From NCBI GenBank assembly GCA_002929135.1, contig PESC01000036.1, positions 1 to 45,850 of the forward strand: a DNA stretch of 45,850 nucleotides. The letters run 5' to 3'. The stretch is from Methylomonas sp. Its GTDB lineage: Bacteria > Pseudomonadota > Gammaproteobacteria > Methylococcales > Methylomonadaceae. The number at the start of each line of letters is the position of its first letter. Position 1 is the stretch's first letter. The position numbers and the translations under genes are program-made. Below the pieces are notes generated by a model. That model worked only from the letters and a program-made list of their open reading frames with translations. It made no database searches and was not told the origin of the DNA. Positions 10,849-18,449 of the stretch are shown in pieces.

Positions 10849-11550
10849 ATGACCAACGACATACTGGTAATCGACGACGACCCCGCCGTGCGCGGTGCCT
10901 TCAAACTCATACTCGAAGCAGAAGGCTGCCAGGTGCGGGAAGCAGAAGACGGTTTACAAGGTATTGCCATGGCCGAAGCAAAACGGCCCGACCTGATTTT
11001 TCTCGACTTGCGCATGCCAGGCATCGACGGTGTGGAAACCCTGCGCAGGCTGCATCGCATCGACGACAGCTTGTGCATCTACATTGTCACCGCCTTTGCC
11101 TCGGAATTTATGGAGCAGCTCAAGGCAGCACACGATGAGGGCCTGCAATTCGAACTGGCCAACAAGCCGTTGTCATCGGCGCAGATACGCAACATCGCCT
11201 ACATCGTGCAACTGGCGAAAACCCATGAGTTGCAACGTGCTGCCCATCACAAACTGGTGCTGACGCTGTTCGTGGTATCGCTGAATCCCGACACCCAGAA
11301 GCTGGTCGGCCAGATCACGACCATGCTGAGTACGCTGTATCAGCCGGGTTACTGGGTGTTCGAGGTGGTCGAAGTGCTGAGCATGCCGGAAAAAGCCCTG
11401 GAACGTGACGTGTTTGCCACACCGATGCTGATACGGGAACTGCCGGAACCGGTGCTGAAGCTGCTGGGTGATCTGTCACGCATGTCATCGGTGATGGCGG
11501 CCATTACCACGCAAGCGCAAAACACCGGCGGACAAACCATCATCGTCTGA
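10849..11550 (+). CDS. Response regulator receiver fused to a KaiB-like domain
   Basis: The 233-residue protein has two domains. Residues 1-120 are a CheY-like receiver with all key residues: D9-D11, phosphoacceptor D53 (FLDLRMPG), T81 and K106. Residues about 134-219 match KaiB, the thioredoxin-like circadian clock protein: the strand LTLFVVSLNPDTQK, then DVFATPMLIRELPEPV and LLGDLS, which parallel the ATPTL...LPPPV...GDLS motif of cyanobacterial KaiB. There is no DNA-binding domain. The next gene, a GGDEF-EAL protein, starts 29 bases downstream and is probably co-transcribed. The family resemblance is clear; a clock role is not implied, since no kaiC or kaiA lies in the window. Confidence 0.88.
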   Translation: MTNDILVIDDDPAVRGAFKLILEAEGCQVREAEDGLQGIAMAEAKRPDLIFLDLRMPGIDGVETLRRLHRIDDSLCIYIVTAFASEFMEQLKAAHDEGLQFELANKPLSSAQIRNIAYIVQLAKTHELQRAAHHKLVLTLFVVSLNPDTQKLVGQITTMLSTLYQPGYWVFEVVEVLSMPEKALERDVFATPMLIRELPEPVLKLLGDLSRMSSVMAAITTQAQNTGGQTIIV

Positions 11551-11579
11551 CCAAGCCATTTGTTGCCAACACCATTGCC

Positions 11580-13193
11580 ATGCAAGACAGCCCACACAAA
11601 CTTGGCCTGATTCTGGACACCATCACCGACGGCATACTCGTCGTCGATGTCACTGGCACCGTGCTCTATGCCAACCAGGCCGCCACGACCATCCTCGAAC
11701 GCGGGCCATTGACCGGCAAGTCGCTGGGCATTCCGCTTGGCGGGCAGCACGACTCGTTTCTGGAAATCAATCTGGTTCGCCGCAGCGGTCTGGGCTGGGC
11801 CGAGTTGCGCTCGACGCCGATCGACTGGGAAGGTATCCAGGCCTTTGTCATCGGTTTGCGCGACATCACCGAGTTGAAAACATCGCAGAGTGAGCTGGAA
11901 TTTCTCACCCATCACGACCCGCTGACCAAACTACCCAATCGCCTGCTGTTTCTGACGCAACTGCAACACGCGATCGACAAGGCGCAACGTCGGCGCATAT
12001 CGCTGGCGGTGCTGATGATGGATCTCGACCATTTCAAGAACATCAACGACAGTTTTGGCCACCGGGTTGGCGACGACCTGCTGCACATCATGGCCGACCG
12101 CCTGAAGCACCACATTCGCAGTACCGACCTGCCGTGCCGTCTGGGTGGCGACGAGTTCGTCGTTATGATCGAAGACATCCCTCATGCCGAATCGGTGGCG
12201 CGTATCGCCAACCAGATCATAGGCGTGCTCAATGAAAGCTGTACATCGGAAAACGGCCAGGAAATGCGCGTCGGTGTCAGTATAGGCATTGCCATTTTCC
12301 CCGATCATGGTCTCACGGCCAGCGAATTGATGCAGCACGCCGACGCTGCGCTGTATCAAGCCAAAAAAGAAGGCCGCAACCGTTTCAAATACTTCAGCGA
12401 GGATTTGACCCGCACGGCGCGTGCCCGCCTGGATACCGAATGGCATTTGCGCCAGTCCATCGAAAAAAATCAGTTGCATGTGTTCTTTCAGCCGCAATTC
12501 GCTATCGCCAGCGGCAGACTGGTTGGCGCGGAGGCTTTGTTGCGCTGGCAGCGCGACGGTCAGTGGATTTCACCGATGGATTTCATCCCGATCGCCGAAG
12601 AAACCGGCCTGATCGATGACATTGGTGAATGGGTGCTGCGACAAACCTGTTTGCAAGGCCGCCGCTGGCTCGATGCCGGTTTGCCGCCACTGCGCCTGGC
12701 CGTCAACCTGTCGCCGCGTCAGTTCCTGCATAGCGACATTGCCGATATGGTCGAGCAGGTATTGGCCGAAACCGGCTTTCCCGCTGACCATCTGGAGCTG
12801 GAACTGACCGAAAGTGCGGTCATGTCGCGCGAGCTGGAATCGATTGCCATCATGAACCAGCTACGTGCGCTGGGCGTCAGCATTGCCATCGACGATTTCG
12901 GCACCGGTTACTCGTCGCTGGCCTATCTCAAGCTGTTCCCGCTCGACGTGCTGAAAATCGACAAACGCTTCATCCAGGACATCCCCCGCGACCGCGATGA
13001 TCAGGAAATCACCGCCGCCATCATTGCCATAGCCAGAACCCTGCACTTGCAGGTGATCGCCGAAGGCGTGGAAACCGCCGAGCAACTCGATTTCCTGCGT
13101 CAGCAGGGCTGCGATGTCTACCAGGGTTATCTCGCCAGCAAGCCGCTGCCGATCGGCCAGTTCCAGGCTCAGTGGCTGGAGCACAGCCAATAA
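11580..13193 (+). CDS. PAS-GGDEF-EAL cyclic-di-GMP signalling protein
   Basis: The 537-residue protein begins with a PAS domain (about residues 6-97, ILDTITDGILVVD to IGLRDITELK). A GGDEF domain (105-270) has intact GGDEF at 189-193 and the product-inhibition RxxD site (RSTD) at 180-183. An EAL domain (290-530) retains EAL at 318-320, NLSPRQF, the acidic pair in DDFGTGYSS, the catalytic LKIDK lysine and AEGVET. Both halves therefore look catalytically competent for making and breaking c-di-GMP. There are no transmembrane segments, so it should be cytoplasmic. It follows the receiver-KaiB gene closely, suggesting that regulator controls it. Confidence 0.93.
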   Translation: MQDSPHKLGLILDTITDGILVVDVTGTVLYANQAATTILERGPLTGKSLGIPLGGQHDSFLEINLVRRSGLGWAELRSTPIDWEGIQAFVIGLRDITELKTSQSELEFLTHHDPLTKLPNRLLFLTQLQHAIDKAQRRRISLAVLMMDLDHFKNINDSFGHRVGDDLLHIMADRLKHHIRSTDLPCRLGGDEFVVMIEDIPHAESVARIANQIIGVLNESCTSENGQEMRVGVSIGIAIFPDHGLTASELMQHADAALYQAKKEGRNRFKYFSEDLTRTARARLDTEWHLRQSIEKNQLHVFFQPQFAIASGRLVGAEALLRWQRDGQWISPMDFIPIAEETGLIDDIGEWVLRQTCLQGRRWLDAGLPPLRLAVNLSPRQFLHSDIADMVEQVLAETGFPADHLELELTESAVMSRELESIAIMNQLRALGVSIAIDDFGTGYSSLAYLKLFPLDVLKIDKRFIQDIPRDRDDQEITAAIIAIARTLHLQVIAEGVETAEQLDFLRQQGCDVYQGYLASKPLPIGQFQAQWLEHSQ

Positions 13194-13905: not shown

Positions 13906-14022
13906 AATCTTAGCTATTGGCTGTAATTAATAATTAGTGTCCATGCTTAGAATCACCGTAGCAGTTCAACGGCTGAATCTTTTGTTAATGGTACCCCATG
14001 AATATGGAGCTGGAGTGTTAAT

Positions 14023-14790
14023 ATGGAAAAGCGTTTCTTTGATAGCAACTTCGAAGTTGTATTGGCTGATACTTTTGAAAGTAAACTAATCAATTACAAT
14101 ATAAGGTATCAGGTTTATTGTGATGAAATGGGGTTTGAGGATAAAGATGTATTCCCCGACGAAATTGAATTTGATGAGTGGGATAAAAATTCCGTACATT
14201 TTCTGGTCAGGCATAAATCAAGTGAAAACTGGCTGGGCGGTCTGAGGCTTGTACACTCCAATGCGAATAGCGGCGAGTTTCCTTTCGAGGAATGGAGCGT
14301 ACCTGATCAGCAGATTGCTGATTCGCAAAGAAATAACGCCGTCGAGGTGTCCAGATTGTGCGTCATAAAAAATGCCCGACGCTTCACCGCCAAACGCTTT
14401 GCGCCTTATGGCTTGCCCGATCACGAAGTTAACGAAAACGGCAATGTCAAATCGATTTTCAACCATAAAAATCAAAGTCGTAGCTTGATGTGGGGTTTAT
14501 TGGGTGCGGCTGCCAGATATTCCGTAGATCATGATATTCGTTCCTGGTATTTCATCGTTACACCGGCATTGGCTGGTTTGCTGCGCATCAATAAATTCGA
14601 AATGACACAGATAGGCGGCGCTTGCGAACACCGGGGGGAACGTTTTCCTTACCGACTGGATGTCATCAAATTTCTTGAAAACGCATTATGGCTAGATGAC
14701 TATAAAGCTGACTACCTTCTCCACTCGAAGATTGCATCACGTGGCGAAAAAGCGAGAATTCGTGATGTTGTTGAATCACTTGCGGGCTAA
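14023..14790 (+). CDS. PEP-CTERM/exosortase-associated acyltransferase (first copy)
   Basis: The 255-residue protein belongs to the acyltransferases found with the PEP-CTERM/exosortase system, related to autoinducer synthases and N-acyl amino acid synthases. The N-terminal pattern NIRYQVYCDEMGF and acidic stretch EIEFDEWDKNSVHFLV, the middle VEVSRLCVI motif and the C-terminal SWYFIVTPALAGLLRI segment fit that family. It would join an acyl chain to an amino compound, substrate unknown. A GGAG site lies before the ATG. The gene is visibly more AT-rich than most of the window. A 220-base gap with no clear gene separates it from the methyltransferase. Confidence 0.85.
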   Translation: MEKRFFDSNFEVVLADTFESKLINYNIRYQVYCDEMGFEDKDVFPDEIEFDEWDKNSVHFLVRHKSSENWLGGLRLVHSNANSGEFPFEEWSVPDQQIADSQRNNAVEVSRLCVIKNARRFTAKRFAPYGLPDHEVNENGNVKSIFNHKNQSRSLMWGLLGAAARYSVDHDIRSWYFIVTPALAGLLRINKFEMTQIGGACEHRGERFPYRLDVIKFLENALWLDDYKADYLLHSKIASRGEKARIRDVVESLAG

Positions 14791-15010
14791 TATTATTGCG
14801 TATCCAACTCACATTCGATACGATTCCACTGTTTTGTAATCAACAAGCTAATCTCAATAAGCGCTTAGCAACAAATTGACAGGTGTTCGTTCTGTTATGT
14901 CGATCAAAGCAACAAACGATTGGCGATAAGTAATACATGCGAACTTTTTTGCTGGGCGCTTATTCTTATCGAGGCTGTATATCTGAAACGCTACAATTTT
15001 GGTGGAAACT

Positions 15011-15784
15011 ATGCGACTGTTTGAATTTGGCGACATGGATATGGTTCCAGAGCTATATCATGTTTACCTCAGGAAATATTTGACATTTTTTTACAAAGCA
15101 TTTGGGTACCATAGGCTCTGGGTGCCGGGCTTTGCCGAATTTATACTCAAAATAAAAAAACAAGACTTAATGGAGTGTTGCTCTGGTTCGGGCGATGTTT
15201 TGCTGATGATAGATGCCGAGCTGGATGAGAGTAAGTTCAAAAATATAAGATATATCCTGAGCGATATAAGGCCAAACCCGGAATTTTGTGGGCGAATCAA
15301 TCTCATGCCCGGTGATCGCTTCAAATACCTGAATGAGTCAGTTGACATTGTTTCCAAGCATGCGGAATACAGCTACCCGAAAATTTTCATAAACTCTTTT
15401 CATCATTTTTCAAAAGAGCAGGTCGTGGGCATATTCAATGCAAATCTGGGAAATAATAATGAAATCATCATAATGGAATATGTTAGAAAGTCTTTTTTGG
15501 GTTTTTTGTCAATGGTTGTAGGGCCGTTAGTCGTTTTTCTGACGCTGCCTTTCGTGGTAAGGCTCAAACACTTGCCCGTAATGGCATTCTTCACTTATTT
15601 GCTGCCAATTTTTCCGTTGATGATGCTTTGGGATGGCATCGTTTCCTGTTTGCACGAGTATTCAGATAAGGAAATAAAACAAATCATTGATGAAATGGGA
15701 TACAAGGTAAATATAAAATCAAGCGTCAAACGCAATTTGTTGTATCCCGCTGGTGTGTCTGTGATCGGCATTACATTTGATTGA
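15011..15784 (+). CDS. Putative SAM-dependent methyltransferase with hydrophobic insert
   Basis: The 257-residue protein resembles an uncharacterised class I methyltransferase family. A degenerate glycine motif (LMECCSGSGDVLL) is near residue 55, NSFHHF near 127, and the conserved stretch LPIFPLMMLWDGIVSCLHEYSDKE near 200. A strongly hydrophobic segment (FLGFLSMVVGPLVVFLTLPFVV, about 157-178) suggests membrane or lipid contact. The ATG at 15011, preceded by GGTGG, is preferred to a TTG four codons upstream. It sits between two acyltransferase genes and is the most AT-rich gene of the window, which suggests acquisition. The methyl acceptor is unknown and might be the acylated product. Confidence 0.65.
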   Translation: MRLFEFGDMDMVPELYHVYLRKYLTFFYKAFGYHRLWVPGFAEFILKIKKQDLMECCSGSGDVLLMIDAELDESKFKNIRYILSDIRPNPEFCGRINLMPGDRFKYLNESVDIVSKHAEYSYPKIFINSFHHFSKEQVVGIFNANLGNNNEIIIMEYVRKSFLGFLSMVVGPLVVFLTLPFVVRLKHLPVMAFFTYLLPIFPLMMLWDGIVSCLHEYSDKEIKQIIDEMGYKVNIKSSVKRNLLYPAGVSVIGITFD

Positions 15785-15842
15785 AATGTAATCGTTTGCC
15801 TGAATAATCACGTTGCATCATTTCAGAACAAGGAGCAAAAAC

Positions 15843-16595
15843 ATGTTGGAAGATGCCAGCAATCCCACCGATGACTTCAAAAAATACTTCACTGTTGCGT
15901 TTGCGGATACCGAACGTTTGAAGCAAGAGGTCTACGGTGTTCGCTATCGCGTGTATTGCGAGGAATTCAACTACGAAGCTACCGATCTGTTTCCAGAGCA
16001 ACAGGAAAAAGATGAGTACGACGATATTTCGATGCACTGCCTGATCGTCCATAAAGCCAGCGGCCTGTCGGCGGCGTGTGTGCGCCTGGTGCCAGCGTCT
16101 GCGCCCCGTCCTGCGTTTTTATTACCCCTGGAAAAGCATTGTGACGAAAGCCTGGATCATGCCTTCGTGCAAAACCTGCATCTGGACAGACAAAAGCAAT
16201 GCGAGTTATCGCGCTTGGCTGTGGATGGAAGGTTTCGCAGACGTCCGGGGGAAAAAGCCTCTCGCTTCGGTAGTGTTGTACCGCTGGATGTTTCGGAACA
16301 TGAGCAGCGTACCTTTCCGTTGATTGCTATTTCGGCGTTTGTGGCGGCCATTGCGCTGACGGATTTATCGGGGCGCGACAGGGTATTCGCCATGATGGAG
16401 CCGTTTTTGCCTCGGTTGCTGACGCGCTCGGGCATTCGTTTCGTCCGTTGTGGTCGGGATATCGATTATCACGGCACCCGGGCCGCCTATTTTCTTGATG
16501 CCTGTGCCGAGGCTACTGTCAGCGATGAGCTAAAGCCAATGTATTTCTGGATAAAAGACCAGCTCAAAAGCGGTTACGGCGCCAGTTTGGCCTGA
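15843..16595 (+). CDS. PEP-CTERM/exosortase-associated acyltransferase (second copy)
   Basis: This 250-residue protein is a diverged paralogue of the acyltransferase encoded at 14023. It shares the GVRYRVYCEEFNYE motif with a following acidic stretch, the SxxCVRLVP strand and CELSRLAVDGRFRRR. The ATG at 15843 has AAGGAG at 15830-15835, 7 bases before it; an in-frame ATG at 15813 lacks a site. It is less AT-rich than its neighbour, so the two copies may have different histories. Its last 22 bases overlap the 3' end of the opposing ThiF-like gene. Confidence 0.85.
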   Translation: MLEDASNPTDDFKKYFTVAFADTERLKQEVYGVRYRVYCEEFNYEATDLFPEQQEKDEYDDISMHCLIVHKASGLSAACVRLVPASAPRPAFLLPLEKHCDESLDHAFVQNLHLDRQKQCELSRLAVDGRFRRRPGEKASRFGSVVPLDVSEHEQRTFPLIAISAFVAAIALTDLSGRDRVFAMMEPFLPRLLTRSGIRFVRCGRDIDYHGTRAAYFLDACAEATVSDELKPMYFWIKDQLKSGYGASLA

Positions 16596-17446
16596 ATTTT
16601 CTTGCGCAACAGCATCAAACCCAAGCGCTGTAATGGATGAGAGTTGCCACCTGGCCGCCAGGTAGTCATGAACTTGTTTTTATAAGCATCGAAATGCAAG
16701 GCCCTGGGGGCGGCCAGAATTTCGCCACGATGCAATAAAATTTTCAGCGCATACGTCCCGATCATTCCGGCGCAGAAATCACAAGCCATCGCGGTGGATG
16801 GGCCTTTGTGGTTGGCAATATCCAGCCTGCTGTCGTCTACCAAGTAGGACATCTGTAAGCCGGTTGGCGACAAACCCACCAGAAATCTCAGCAGTTGCTC
16901 GATTTCCGTTTGATCCTCCCATTGAAAATACTCTTCGAAGCTCATTTTGCCGGGCATGAAACACAGGAATGACGTGCCCATGCCCAATGGCGCGGCCGTG
17001 ATGGCGGGGATGGCTTTTTCCGCGCAGGCCTTGAATACGATACGCCGGGCGTTGATGGCAAAAAAATCCAGGCCATCGACATACAGATCAACACCGGCGA
17101 GAAAATCATCGACATTGCTTTCATTAATACCTTCAGGAAATGTGCGGATGTCGAGTTCCGGGTTGATGTCCCGTGCCATGTCGGCCATGACCTGGGCTTT
17201 GGCCAAATTAAGATGGCTCATGGAGGCACCGGCCTGGCGGTTGAAATTGGCCAGTTCGAATACATCCAGATCAGAGATGTTGAAATTTCCGACACCTAGG
17301 CGGGACAAGGTAATCAAGTGGCTGCCGCCGACACCGCCCAGCCCGGCGATGGCGATGCGTTTGGATTTCAATAATGCTTGCTCGGCGTCGCTGATCCAGC
17401 CGATATTGCGGGAAAAGGCGAGCTGATAATCAAATGGGGTGTTCAC
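16574..17446 (-). CDS. ThiF/E1-like adenylyltransferase
   Basis: The 290-residue protein has the Rossmann nucleotide site GLGGVGGSH (about residues 33-41), the DLDVFELANFNRQ segment with the catalytic arginine, and VDGLDFF in place of the usual DCSDNF. It therefore looks competent to adenylate a C-terminus, as MoeB, ThiF and E1 enzymes do. It lacks the paired zinc CxxC motifs of MoeB; the single CDFC (near 233) is not enough. The start is GTG at 17446 with GGAG just upstream. It converges on and overlaps the second acyltransferase by 22 bases, and follows the PEP-CTERM gene. The substrate is unknown. Confidence 0.8.
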   Translation of the reverse strand: MNTPFDYQLAFSRNIGWISDAEQALLKSKRIAIAGLGGVGGSHLITLSRLGVGNFNISDLDVFELANFNRQAGASMSHLNLAKAQVMADMARDINPELDIRTFPEGINESNVDDFLAGVDLYVDGLDFFAINARRIVFKACAEKAIPAITAAPLGMGTSFLCFMPGKMSFEEYFQWEDQTEIEQLLRFLVGLSPTGLQMSYLVDDSRLDIANHKGPSTAMACDFCAGMIGTYALKILLHRGEILAAPRALHFDAYKNKFMTTWRPGGNSHPLQRLGLMLLRKKIQAKLAP

Positions 17447-17528
17447 TGAATGTCTCCGTACAGGTTGCAGGTGTTGTAAGCCGATTGGCGCCGCTGCCTG
17501 ACAACATAGAGCATGGAACAGGGTTTGC

Positions 17529-17557
17529 AAAAAAAAACCGCTCATGAATATGAGCGG
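17529..17557 (-). terminator. Intrinsic terminator of the PEP-CTERM gene
   Basis: CCGCTCAT and ATGAGCGG (17538-17545 and 17550-17557) form a perfect 8-bp stem around GAAT. On the minus strand it is followed by nine T residues (complement of 17529-17537). It separates the PEP-CTERM gene from the ThiF-like gene. Confidence 0.88.
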
Positions 17558-17582
17558 CTTTTCTTGGCCGTTGCGAAACGTG

Positions 17583-18449
17583 TTACGCGGTTTTTCTGCG
17601 AGAAGCAGCAAAACCGAGCAAGCCTATACCCAACAATGCAATCGATGTGGGTTCTGGTACTGGTCTGATAGTGCCGTCCAGTTGGGTGGTGCGGTATCTG
17701 CTGTTAGGGTCGTTGGTGGCTGTCAAAGTGTTGAAAGCACCAGGGATTGGCGGATCAATGTTGGTATCAAGACGCGCGGTCAATTTCGCTGGATTGAAAC
17801 CTACCAGTGTGCTGGCATCAACGAAACTGCCGCCTTGCTCCACCAGCAAAAAGCCTGGCAATGCGAAAGTCACGTCAAAAAACAGATCCAAGTTGGCAAG
17901 CGTCAAAGCAGAGCCAGTCAGAGTCAGTCCGATTACTCTGGTATCCATACCTAGTCCGTTGCTGTAATCATCAAACCAGATGTCGTAGCTGCCAGTGCTG
18001 AACGATGGTGGGCTGGTGAAATTAGTACCGTCGAAGCCTATGGTTCCATTCAGATCATATTGCGCTACCAAACCCCAAGAGTTTGAAAACCCTTCGGTAT
18101 CTCTTGCCAGCATGGAGTGTGGAGGCGTAAGTGGCGATAAGTTACCGATGCTGGTTTCGGTGTAAGTTGGCGCAGCAATGCCAAAGCCTGCCAAAACCCC
18201 TGTGATGTTGGTATCCCGAATGGTTGCCGTTCCAGGAGCACCAGGGGTGTAAATAGAAAACGCCCTGAAATCGTTGAAGCCAAACGCCTCGAAATTACCC
18301 GTGATAGTACCAGCATCACTGCCAGCGCCTGAGCCAAAATTTGGGCCGATAACGCCTGTATCAATTCTCATTTGAATCGGTGCAGCAGATGCCAAACCGG
18401 ATACCAGTGTCGCGGCAATGGCTGCCGCTATTTTCAATTTCGTGTTCAT
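17583..18449 (-). CDS. PEP-CTERM sorting-domain protein
   Basis: The 288-residue protein is built for export: a signal peptide (about residues 1-22, ending LASA) and a C-terminal sorting tail at 264-288 made of VPEP, a hydrophobic helix and a basic end (RRK). In this system exosortase removes the tail at the membrane and the protein is delivered to the cell surface or exopolysaccharide. The middle is rich in Gly, Thr, Asn and Asp and has no recognised domain or cysteines. It has its own sigma-54 type promoter and terminator, so it is probably monocistronic. Confidence 0.93.
   Translation of the reverse strand: MNTKLKIAAAIAATLVSGLASAAPIQMRIDTGVIGPNFGSGAGSDAGTITGNFEAFGFNDFRAFSIYTPGAPGTATIRDTNITGVLAGFGIAAPTYTETSIGNLSPLTPPHSMLARDTEGFSNSWGLVAQYDLNGTIGFDGTNFTSPPSFSTGSYDIWFDDYSNGLGMDTRVIGLTLTGSALTLANLDLFFDVTFALPGFLLVEQGGSFVDASTLVGFNPAKLTARLDTNIDPPIPGAFNTLTATNDPNSRYRTTQLDGTIRPVPEPTSIALLGIGLLGFAASRRKTA

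Follow-up and report, generated by a model that had tools for sequence, protein, structure and literature searches.

In this study, we report a gene of Methylomonas sp. whose product fuses a receiver domain with all its phosphorylation residues to KaiB, a bacterial clock protein best known for its partnership with the core clock protein KaiC, and which in most related loci is accompanied by a large histidine kinase gene upstream and a gene opening with a PAS domain downstream. The cassette puts known parts together in a new way that would not depend on KaiC. With about even confidence, we propose that it encodes a two-component relay working without KaiC, in which KaiB serves as output domain of the response regulator and acts on the PAS domain of an exchangeable output protein. 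The DNA analysed (assembly GCA_002929135.1, contig PESC01000036.1, positions 1 to 45,850, forward strand; 45,850 nucleotides) is referred to below as the window, and its features are listed in Table 1. Both open reading frames of the gene pair, and the gap of 29 bases between them, are as described in the first-pass annotation.

Table 1. Coordinates of the fusion gene, its downstream neighbour and their domains within the window
Feature	Positions	Strand	Basis and remarks
REC-KaiB fusion gene	10849..11550	+	Open reading frame, 233 aa; Pfam Response_reg and KaiB; 26 aligned orthologues
Receiver domain, about residues 1-122	10849..11214	+	D9, D10, T81, K106; phospho-acceptor D53 at 11005-11007; Pfam and alignment
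Linker, residues 123-134	11215..11250	+	Length and sequence vary between orthologues (alignment A1)
KaiB domain, about residues 135-233	11251..11547	+	Conserved FATPM / LPEPVLKLLGDLS; C-terminal tail is a predicted extra strand
PAS-GGDEF-EAL gene, cassette partner	11580..13193	+	Open reading frame, 537 aa; Pfam; neighbour in relatives
N-terminal PAS (PAS1), residues 1-105	11580..11894	+	Alignment A4 (17 sequences); position in 39 third genes; genomic tie to kaiB
GGDEF domain	11910..12383	+	GGDEF motif and I-site RxxD intact
EAL domain	12447..13145	+	EALLR and DDFGTG motifs intact

The fusion protein

The N-terminal half matched Response_reg in Pfam (8.8e-24, residues 5-113) and carries the aspartate pair of the acidic pocket, the phospho-acceptor aspartate, the T/S residue and the lysine of a response regulator. 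The phosphorylatable receiver that had been read from D53, T81 and K106 is thus present, and these residues, together with D9 and D10, were identical in all 26 aligned orthologues. With all five phosphorylation residues retained, a pseudo-receiver of the CikA/KaiA type was rejected; a SasA-type kinase was also rejected, as Pfam gave no HisKA or HATPase match.

The C-terminal half matched KaiB (PF07689) at 2e-9, with 37.5 bits against a cut-off of 27, over residues 140-212. In a phmmer search of residues 125-233 against PDB sequences, the top nine matches were KaiB chains (1.5e-10 to 8.7e-9). The full-length AlphaFold model, built from 26 sequences, was poor over KaiB (pLDDT below 50 at 180-209), and the domain was therefore modelled alone; AlphaFold2 with 67 sequences gave residues 131-233 a mean pLDDT of 86.3 and the order b-a-b-a-b-b-a-(b). 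When this model was compared with the PDB using Foldseek, all 18 matches at E<=0.001 were KaiB or the N-domain of SasA, headed by fold-switched KaiB structures and including KaiB in complex with the KaiC CI ATPase domain. The KaiB-like domain recognised earlier was therefore borne out, and at this threshold the structure search returned the KaiB/thioredoxin-like fold and no other. The predicted topology was that of the fold-switched (thioredoxin-like) form only. A passage on T. elongatus KaiB describes the same topology as the AlphaFold default for that protein (PMC10808063), and its appearance in a predicted model is no evidence of switching.

Invariant positions of the KaiB part among the 26 orthologues were W169, PEKAL, F189, TP, R196, P199, P201 and G207. 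The fused subfamily shares A-x-P, P-x-P and G-x-L with canonical KaiB, and differs from it at strongly conserved positions (G to S144, D to E175, T to M193 and R to L203). In the KaiB tree it formed a separate, very diverged clade with a stem of 4.26 changes per column; the tree, which has long branches and unsettled bootstrap values, does not single out the nearest canonical KaiB. Because the subfamily is so strongly diverged and canonical residues are replaced, as at L203, the binding surface of the fused domain may differ from that of known KaiB.

The cassette in related genomes

The full-length fusion was found in 27 of the 151 sampled genomes of the family, our own genome included, and the same fusion thus does occur in other genomes. 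Loci were read with genes called by a longest-frame script, by which some small genes under longer frames of the other strand were lost. In two genomes a split form was present, with the order histidine kinase, REC, half-KaiB-REC, solo KaiB and PAS1-output, the solo KaiB being a separate gene of 96 aa; REC and KaiB thus also occur as neighbours.

The product of the gene downstream in the window matched PAS (8.1e-6, the best of several PAS models), GGDEF (1.9e-51) and EAL (4.8e-76) in Pfam. In a motif check, GGDEF was intact, as was the I-site, which lies five residues upstream of it, and so were the EAL motifs looked for (Table 1). By its sequence, this protein qualifies as a predicted bifunctional GGDEF-EAL enzyme. 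It has PAS1, whereas two additional PAS domains present in a relative of 790 aa are missing from it.

Among the 41 loci read, 39 have a downstream gene that starts with PAS1. What follows PAS1 varies: the downstream gene was PAS-GGDEF-EAL in 28 loci, a PAS-histidine kinase with or without REC in 11, and neither in two (L061 and L063), which keep the kinase and REC-KaiB without an adjoining PAS1 gene. Since GGDEF-EAL is swapped for a histidine kinase in those 11 loci with PAS1 retained, the constant element downstream is, as far as sequence tells, the N-terminal PAS and not the c-di-GMP enzyme. The recurrence of the fusion and of the PAS1 gene behind it means that the gene pair was not put together by chance. 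The first-pass annotation proposed KaiB docking on the c-di-GMP enzyme; of this, the conserved pair stands, and the conserved partner proves to be the PAS. If KaiB docks at all, it is more likely to do so on the PAS than on the enzyme.

Upstream of the fusion, a histidine kinase of about 1710 aa was found on the same strand in 36 of the 41 loci, two copies being cut by contig ends. It consists of a pseudo Ser/Thr-kinase, a STAND-type ATPase (AAA_16), TPR, GAF and HisKA-HATPase. An orthologue of at least 66% identity was present in 26 of the 27 family genomes carrying the fusion; G115 has the fusion without this kinase, and G015 and G132 have kinase fragments (73-75% identity) and no fusion. 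The kinase is not visible in the window because in Methylomonas sp. it lies on another contig (C20:20021-25105), where it shows 69% identity across 1692 aa; its HisKA, HATPase and GAF domains were detected, and the GVAHEINNP motif and the N and G boxes are intact. A tblastn search of the window for a kinase remnant 5' of the fusion gene gave chance matches only (best E 1.3). The partner histidine kinase sought elsewhere in the genome thus has a candidate. Gene order in relatives supports the pairing of kinase and receiver; in our own genome the pairing rests on orthology, since the two genes are unlinked there. In L081 a histidine kinase of 576 aa, with a core 49.5% identical to that of the cassette kinase, and in L064 one of 1125 aa, takes its place.

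Judged by frame length and score, 48 genomes of the order are apparent carriers; 40 were read, and G245, G249, G253, G254, G255, G258, G259 and G262 were left out. Samples of 369 and 398 genomes outside the order gave a KaiB match in 25 and 36, respectively, our own genome being counted in both. A KaiB open frame of at least 200 aa occurred in nine genomes besides our own; all nine were read, and in none did that frame match a receiver profile derived from the fusions. Plasmid records matched in 760 of 72,556 cases, all below 60% identity (eight of the 760 being listed), and a contig-wide scan gave, among the matches listed, mostly other receivers and is no census of the fusion. Thiohalocapsa receivers (L083 and L084, 54-56% identical) were rejected as relatives of the fusion, there being no KaiB nearby. 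In the samples examined, REC-KaiB appears nearly confined to Methylococcales.

A proposed relay and its alternatives

In the proposed relay, the large kinase on C20 would autophosphorylate and pass its phosphate to D53 of REC-KaiB. Phosphorylation would free or re-orient the fused KaiB domain, in its thioredoxin-like (fold-switched) form, which would then bind the N-terminal PAS of the next gene's product. This binding would set the activity of the output behind the PAS, which here would be GGDEF-EAL, with an effect on c-di-GMP, and in other lineages a histidine kinase, in some cases combined with a receiver. Genes may, however, be neighbours because their products touch or because they are regulated together, and gene order does not distinguish the two.

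The association of PAS1 with kaiB extends beyond the order to other Pseudomonadota. The sample comprised 48 of the 59 KaiB-positive genomes (our own aside) from the 369- and 398-genome samples, and hence KaiB-bearing genomes only; in it, 50 of 56 PAS1 matches had a kaiB no more than 10 kb away. For a control PAS, this held for 5 of the 150 matches listed, which cover 35 of its 47 matching genomes. Twelve of the 26 genomes with a near PAS1 match belong to one family. No PAS1 was detected at E<=1e-9 in 19 of the 48 genomes. L065, a canonical kaiBC locus of 16 kb from another member of the family to which Methylomonas sp. belongs, likewise gave no PAS1 match at E<=1e-8. The tie may stem from shared descent of kaiBC-type operons and not from binding. 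As a tentative and rather less than even proposition, KaiB and a PAS1-type domain would make up a portable signalling pair in Pseudomonadota that predates KaiC and can be separated from it, with histidine kinases, diguanylate cyclases and GGDEF-EAL enzymes as outputs; only the input would change, from KaiC in kaiBC operons to a phosphorylated receiver fused to KaiB in Methylococcales.

An unlikely alternative to the relay is that REC-KaiB feeds back on the kinase, docking on its ATPase/TPR part as KaiB does on the ATPase of KaiC, with the enzyme merely co-transcribed or a separate branch. The kinase recurs almost as regularly as the PAS1 gene (36 against 39 of 41 loci, and 26 of 27 genomes) and has an ATPase domain, L061 and L063 keep kinase and fusion without the PAS1 gene, and KaiB bound to the CI domain is among the Foldseek matches. 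KaiC, however, has a RecA-like fold, which AAA_16/STAND is not; REC/KaiB and PAS1 are still kept in L081 and in the split locus L057, whose kinases are of other N-terminal make-up; and no cassette-type kinase was seen in the 20 PAS1-kaiB loci read outside the order. That the KaiB-like part is a mere thioredoxin-fold tail for stability or dimerisation, the neighbour being signalled by ordinary REC contacts, would agree with the predicted topology, the poorly conserved linker and the smaller share of invariant positions (23/99 in the KaiB part, 43/122 in the receiver, over 26 orthologues). We nevertheless consider it improbable, as the KaiB part keeps its own invariant set and also occurs as a separate gene in the split locus.

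It is more improbable still that REC-KaiB serves a KaiBC timer as its input or output arm and competes for KaiC with ordinary KaiB, in the manner of cyanobacterial SasA. The kaiC gene sought elsewhere in our own genome, which is 95.86% complete, was not found: no KaiC match exceeded the cut-off, the best scoring 55.6 against 408 bits and lying in RadA. PF06745 matches over the cut-off on C10 were rejected as kaiC, the genes there being RadA and DnaB, which flank an alanine racemase; two further matches, on C16 and C3, were below it. At E<=1e-40, KaiC was absent from 17 of the 27 fusion carriers in the family, our own genome included. Such an arm would fit the matches to KaiB and SasA bound to KaiC, and KaiC is present in 10 of 27 fusion genomes against 27 of 124 others (Fisher p 0.14); the replaced canonical positions S144, E175, M193 and L203 argue against it.

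Relation to known KaiB systems

Fused KaiB has the fold and family match of stand-alone KaiB (PF07689), but it is joined to a receiver with all phosphorylation residues, often in genomes where KaiC was not found, and forms a clade of its own. Passages of earlier papers describe KaiB beside histidine kinase or GGDEF/EAL output genes in Pseudomonadota (PMC3164672) and the order kaiC-B-PAS/HK in R. palustris and R. sphaeroides (PMC4794148, PMC6627678). In such operons KaiC is the input, whereas the REC-KaiB cassette has a histidine kinase/receiver pair in its place. SasA likewise carries a KaiB-fold domain within a two-component protein, and its N-domain is among the Foldseek matches, but there the domain sits on the kinase and here on the response regulator. 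The KaiB-like domain is reported to be missing from SasA homologues of organisms other than cyanobacteria, and in such organisms output must follow a route unlike the one known (PMC5520375). A precedent for a receiver-type domain meeting KaiB is described for the CikA pseudo-receiver (PMC12632262), which acts in trans, in contrast to the single chain and full set of phosphorylation residues of REC-KaiB.

Response regulators controlling GGDEF-EAL enzymes are a known type, and as in the cassette, kinase, regulator and c-di-GMP enzyme stand in one gene set. Unlike those regulators, the receiver is not fused to the enzyme here, and the KaiB domain seems to be the go-between. In one study, the interaction between c-di-GMP and the clock of cyanobacteria is an indirect one only (PMC13001216). 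In the literature searched, where most subscription papers were out of reach, no paper was found on KaiB and Methylomonas, nor on a KaiB domain, response regulator and receiver domain together; the Kai passages of one paper on KaiB and a methanotroph concern Methylorubrum extorquens.

In these methane-oxidising bacteria, KaiB is fused to a phospho-switch whose gene travels with those of a sensor kinase and an output enzyme, and KaiC is often missing from the genome; this suggests that KaiB is able to relay signals of non-clock origin. As a response-regulator output domain in many such genomes, it would offer a clean system for studying KaiB's own role. PAS1, which recurs beside canonical kaiBC genes, is a concrete candidate for its partner; the histidine kinase or GGDEF/EAL output genes of the kaiBC loci that were read carry PAS1-like domains.

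The receiver-KaiB fusion and its fold

The window, 45,850 bases long, corresponds to contig C25 in a 2.57 Mb assembly with 95.86% completeness. Both domains of the fusion protein REC-KaiB, receiver and KaiB, passed the curated Pfam cut-offs, and the top PDB-sequence matches of its KaiB part were KaiB chains. In an AlphaFold model built from 67 sequences, residues 131-233 had a mean pLDDT of 86.3 and a thioredoxin-like order, and all 18 of their Foldseek matches at E<=0.001 were fold-switched KaiB or the SasA N-domain. The domain reading in the first-pass annotation, a receiver fused to KaiB, was right. The fold-switched form of the model is no proof of switching, since the AlphaFold default output for T. 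elongatus KaiB is likewise the fold-switched form, as stated in PMC10808063. The receiver residues D9, D10, D53, T81 and K106 were identical in all 26 aligned REC-KaiB sequences. The enzyme encoded downstream (537 aa) has intact GGDEF-EAL motifs in a motif check and is shorter than relatives such as the one at locus L040 (790 aa, three PAS domains); its sole PAS, at the N-terminus, is of the type termed PAS1. Coordinates of these and other features are listed in the table.

Features in the window, elsewhere in its genome and in the other loci read
Feature	Location	Remark
REC-KaiB gene	window 10849-11550	receiver joined to KaiB domain
PAS-GGDEF-EAL gene	window 11580-13193	starts 29 bases after REC-KaiB gene
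N-acyltransferase-like genes (Acetyltransf_5)	window 14023-14790 and 15813-16595	second also matches Autoind_synth, 1e-6
ThiF-type gene	window 16574-17611	opposite strand, after the two N-acyltransferase-like genes
Segment with G+C 0.41	window 14001-16000	
Own-genome cassette kinase	C20:20021-25105 (L076:7013-12142, -)	intact, 69% identical
Second cassette-kinase copy of G061	L183:3379-8928	front part >70% identical, histidine-kinase core replaced (26%)
KaiB-half/receiver chimera	L057:7597-8106	169 aa; KaiB first half and complete receiver, between REC gene and solo KaiB gene
Gene similar to the L057 chimera	L180:1085-1597	
Direct repeat flanking cassette	L081, 4620-4721 and 10679-10780	102 bases, 98% identical
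Tandem pair of REC-KaiB genes	L175:7855-9292	cassette kinase on one side, PAS1-GGDEF-EAL on other
Stand-alone KaiB, very diverged	L168:2672-2941, L169:8258-8527, L171:5498-5767	89 aa; another family of the order

Composition of the cassette

The composition of the cassette (large kinase gene, REC-KaiB, PAS1-output gene) was derived from 41 loci, examined gene by gene. The same cassette kinase of ~1710 aa was encoded 5' of REC-KaiB in 36 of them, with two copies cut by contig ends and a small frame intervening in L176. Among the remaining five, the kinase was encoded on another contig for the window and L058, a contig edge stood in its place in L174, and a different histidine kinase occupied the upstream position in L064 and L081. 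The first-pass annotation had suggested a search for kaiC or a partner histidine kinase elsewhere in the genome, and a candidate for the second lies on contig C20. Across the family sample of 151 genomes, 26 of the 27 fusion genomes had the kinase at >=66% identity, the exception being G115; kinase fragments (73-75% identity) occurred without the fusion in G015 and G132.

The kinase carries protein-kinase-like, AAA_16 ATPase, TPR, GAF, HisKA and HATPase domains. Its Ser/Thr-kinase part has HGG instead of HRD in 37 of 37 copies checked and, with the catalytic aspartate missing, is probably a conserved pseudokinase. The histidine kinase motif GVAHEINNP was intact in 36 of 37, the exception being the second G061 copy, beside which no KaiB was found in the 13 kb read. 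One chain thus seems to combine a conserved pseudokinase with a STAND ATPase and a histidine kinase of intact appearance.

Downstream, PAS1-GGDEF-EAL was encoded in 28 of the 41 loci (the L058 copy being cut in its EAL part by a contig end) and PAS1-HK or PAS1-HK-REC in 11, with neither in the remaining two. The PAS1 profile matched the N-terminal end of all 39 such genes, and window PAS1 was 40-59% identical to 17 aligned copies. This contrast of varying outputs behind a constant PAS1 indicates an exchange of the output domain, with the first ~100 residues retained. With the fusion in 27 of 151 family genomes, the pairing of the two genes goes beyond chance.

Distribution and independence from KaiC

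The 27 full-length orthologues, own genome counted, were 52-100% identical. G038 and G248, near relatives of the same genus, also carry the gene. Order-wide, 48 of 311 genomes, in the window's family and one other, had a KaiB match of fusion-like frame length and score, and 40 of these were read. One further fusion lay outside the order, in a MAG labelled Comamonadaceae (L081), where the repeat flanking the cassette hints at mobile insertion outside Methylococcales. KaiB frames from samples spanning the class (369 genomes) and the phylum (398 genomes) were nearly all of stand-alone size, and none of nine long frames read from them matched a receiver profile. The very diverged 89-aa KaiB lies beside a long GGDEF-EAL gene, which measures 1557 aa in L169 and L171 and is truncated at the contig end in L168; this neighbourhood differs from the cassette.

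Locus L057 (G094) encodes, in order, a histidine kinase (772 aa), REC (126 aa), the chimera, a solo KaiB (96 aa, PF07689 42.2 bits) and PAS1-GGDEF-EAL; L180 (G260) has the same arrangement to the extent of its contig. The same functions therefore recur whether REC and KaiB are fused or not. In a KaiB tree, flagged for long branches, the fusion KaiB parts and the solo KaiB of the split locus formed one clade (100/100 support) whose stem measured 4.26 changes per column. The fused subfamily has W169, E175, M193 and L203 at positions that in canonical KaiB are mostly Y, D, T and R.

The KaiC model gave no match above cut-off in the own genome; weaker matches on contig C10 were rejected as RadA and DnaB. 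At E<=1e-40, KaiC was present in 37 of 151 family genomes, comprising 10 of 27 fusion carriers and 27 of 124 others (Fisher p 0.14), which indicates that the fusion is not tied to KaiC. Such a KaiB departs from the statement in PMC5520375 that bacterial KaiB occurs only alongside full-length KaiC. The parts are known; the way they are put together, KaiB being carried by a response regulator, free of KaiC and with exchangeable output, is a new variation.

PAS1 near kaiB and a proposed signalling route

Outside the order, PAS1 was searched (E<=1e-9) in 48 of 59 genomes with a KaiB match. It gave 56 matches in 29 genomes, 50 of them within 10 kb of a KaiB match, and the best match was near KaiB in 25 of 29. 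The 26 genomes with a near match span 13 families, with 12 of the genomes in one family (f220). As a control, another PAS of these proteins was searched in the same genomes; 5 of the 150 matches listed lay within 10 kb of KaiB, as did 1 of 35 best matches. This control shows that closeness to kaiB is not general to PAS domains in these genomes; being of a commoner PAS type, it speaks to nearness and is no demonstration of PAS1 binding KaiB. Two results speak against a universal rule: 19 of the 48 genomes had no match at this threshold, and neither had L065, the canonical kaiBC locus from a related genome of the same family as the window.

Among 20 PAS1-kaiB loci read, several held a full operon, for example KaiB-KaiC-KaiB-[PAS, PAS1, GGDEF]-[PAS1, HK, REC] in L259 and KaiB-KaiC-[PAS1, HK]-[PAS1, GGDEF]-[PAS1, HK, REC] in L243; others were only partial, and gene calling recovered none of the operon in L253 and L255. 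Non-cyanobacterial kaiBC operons with a histidine kinase or GGDEF/EAL gene have been described (PMC3164672, PMC4794148, PMC6627678). Our literature search found no account tying kaiBC operons to a KaiC-free cassette through one PAS type.

The first-pass annotation had proposed a phospho-switch docking KaiB on the c-di-GMP enzyme. Half of this stands: the partner to consider is the PAS, kept while the output varies, with the sensor kinase encoded elsewhere in the genome. From gene order and intact motifs, with the chemistry inferred, the histidine-kinase core of the cassette kinase would likely phosphorylate D53. The receiver would govern access to the fused KaiB domain, which would act on PAS1, and PAS1 would set the activity of its output domain, in the window the GGDEF-EAL enzyme. 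We give a KaiB-PAS1 contact an even chance and consider a true fold switch doubtful, these gradings being judgement and not measurement. The CikA pseudo-receiver, stated in PMC12632262 to bind KaiB, is a precedent in trans for a receiver acting with KaiB, whereas REC-KaiB has both in one chain.
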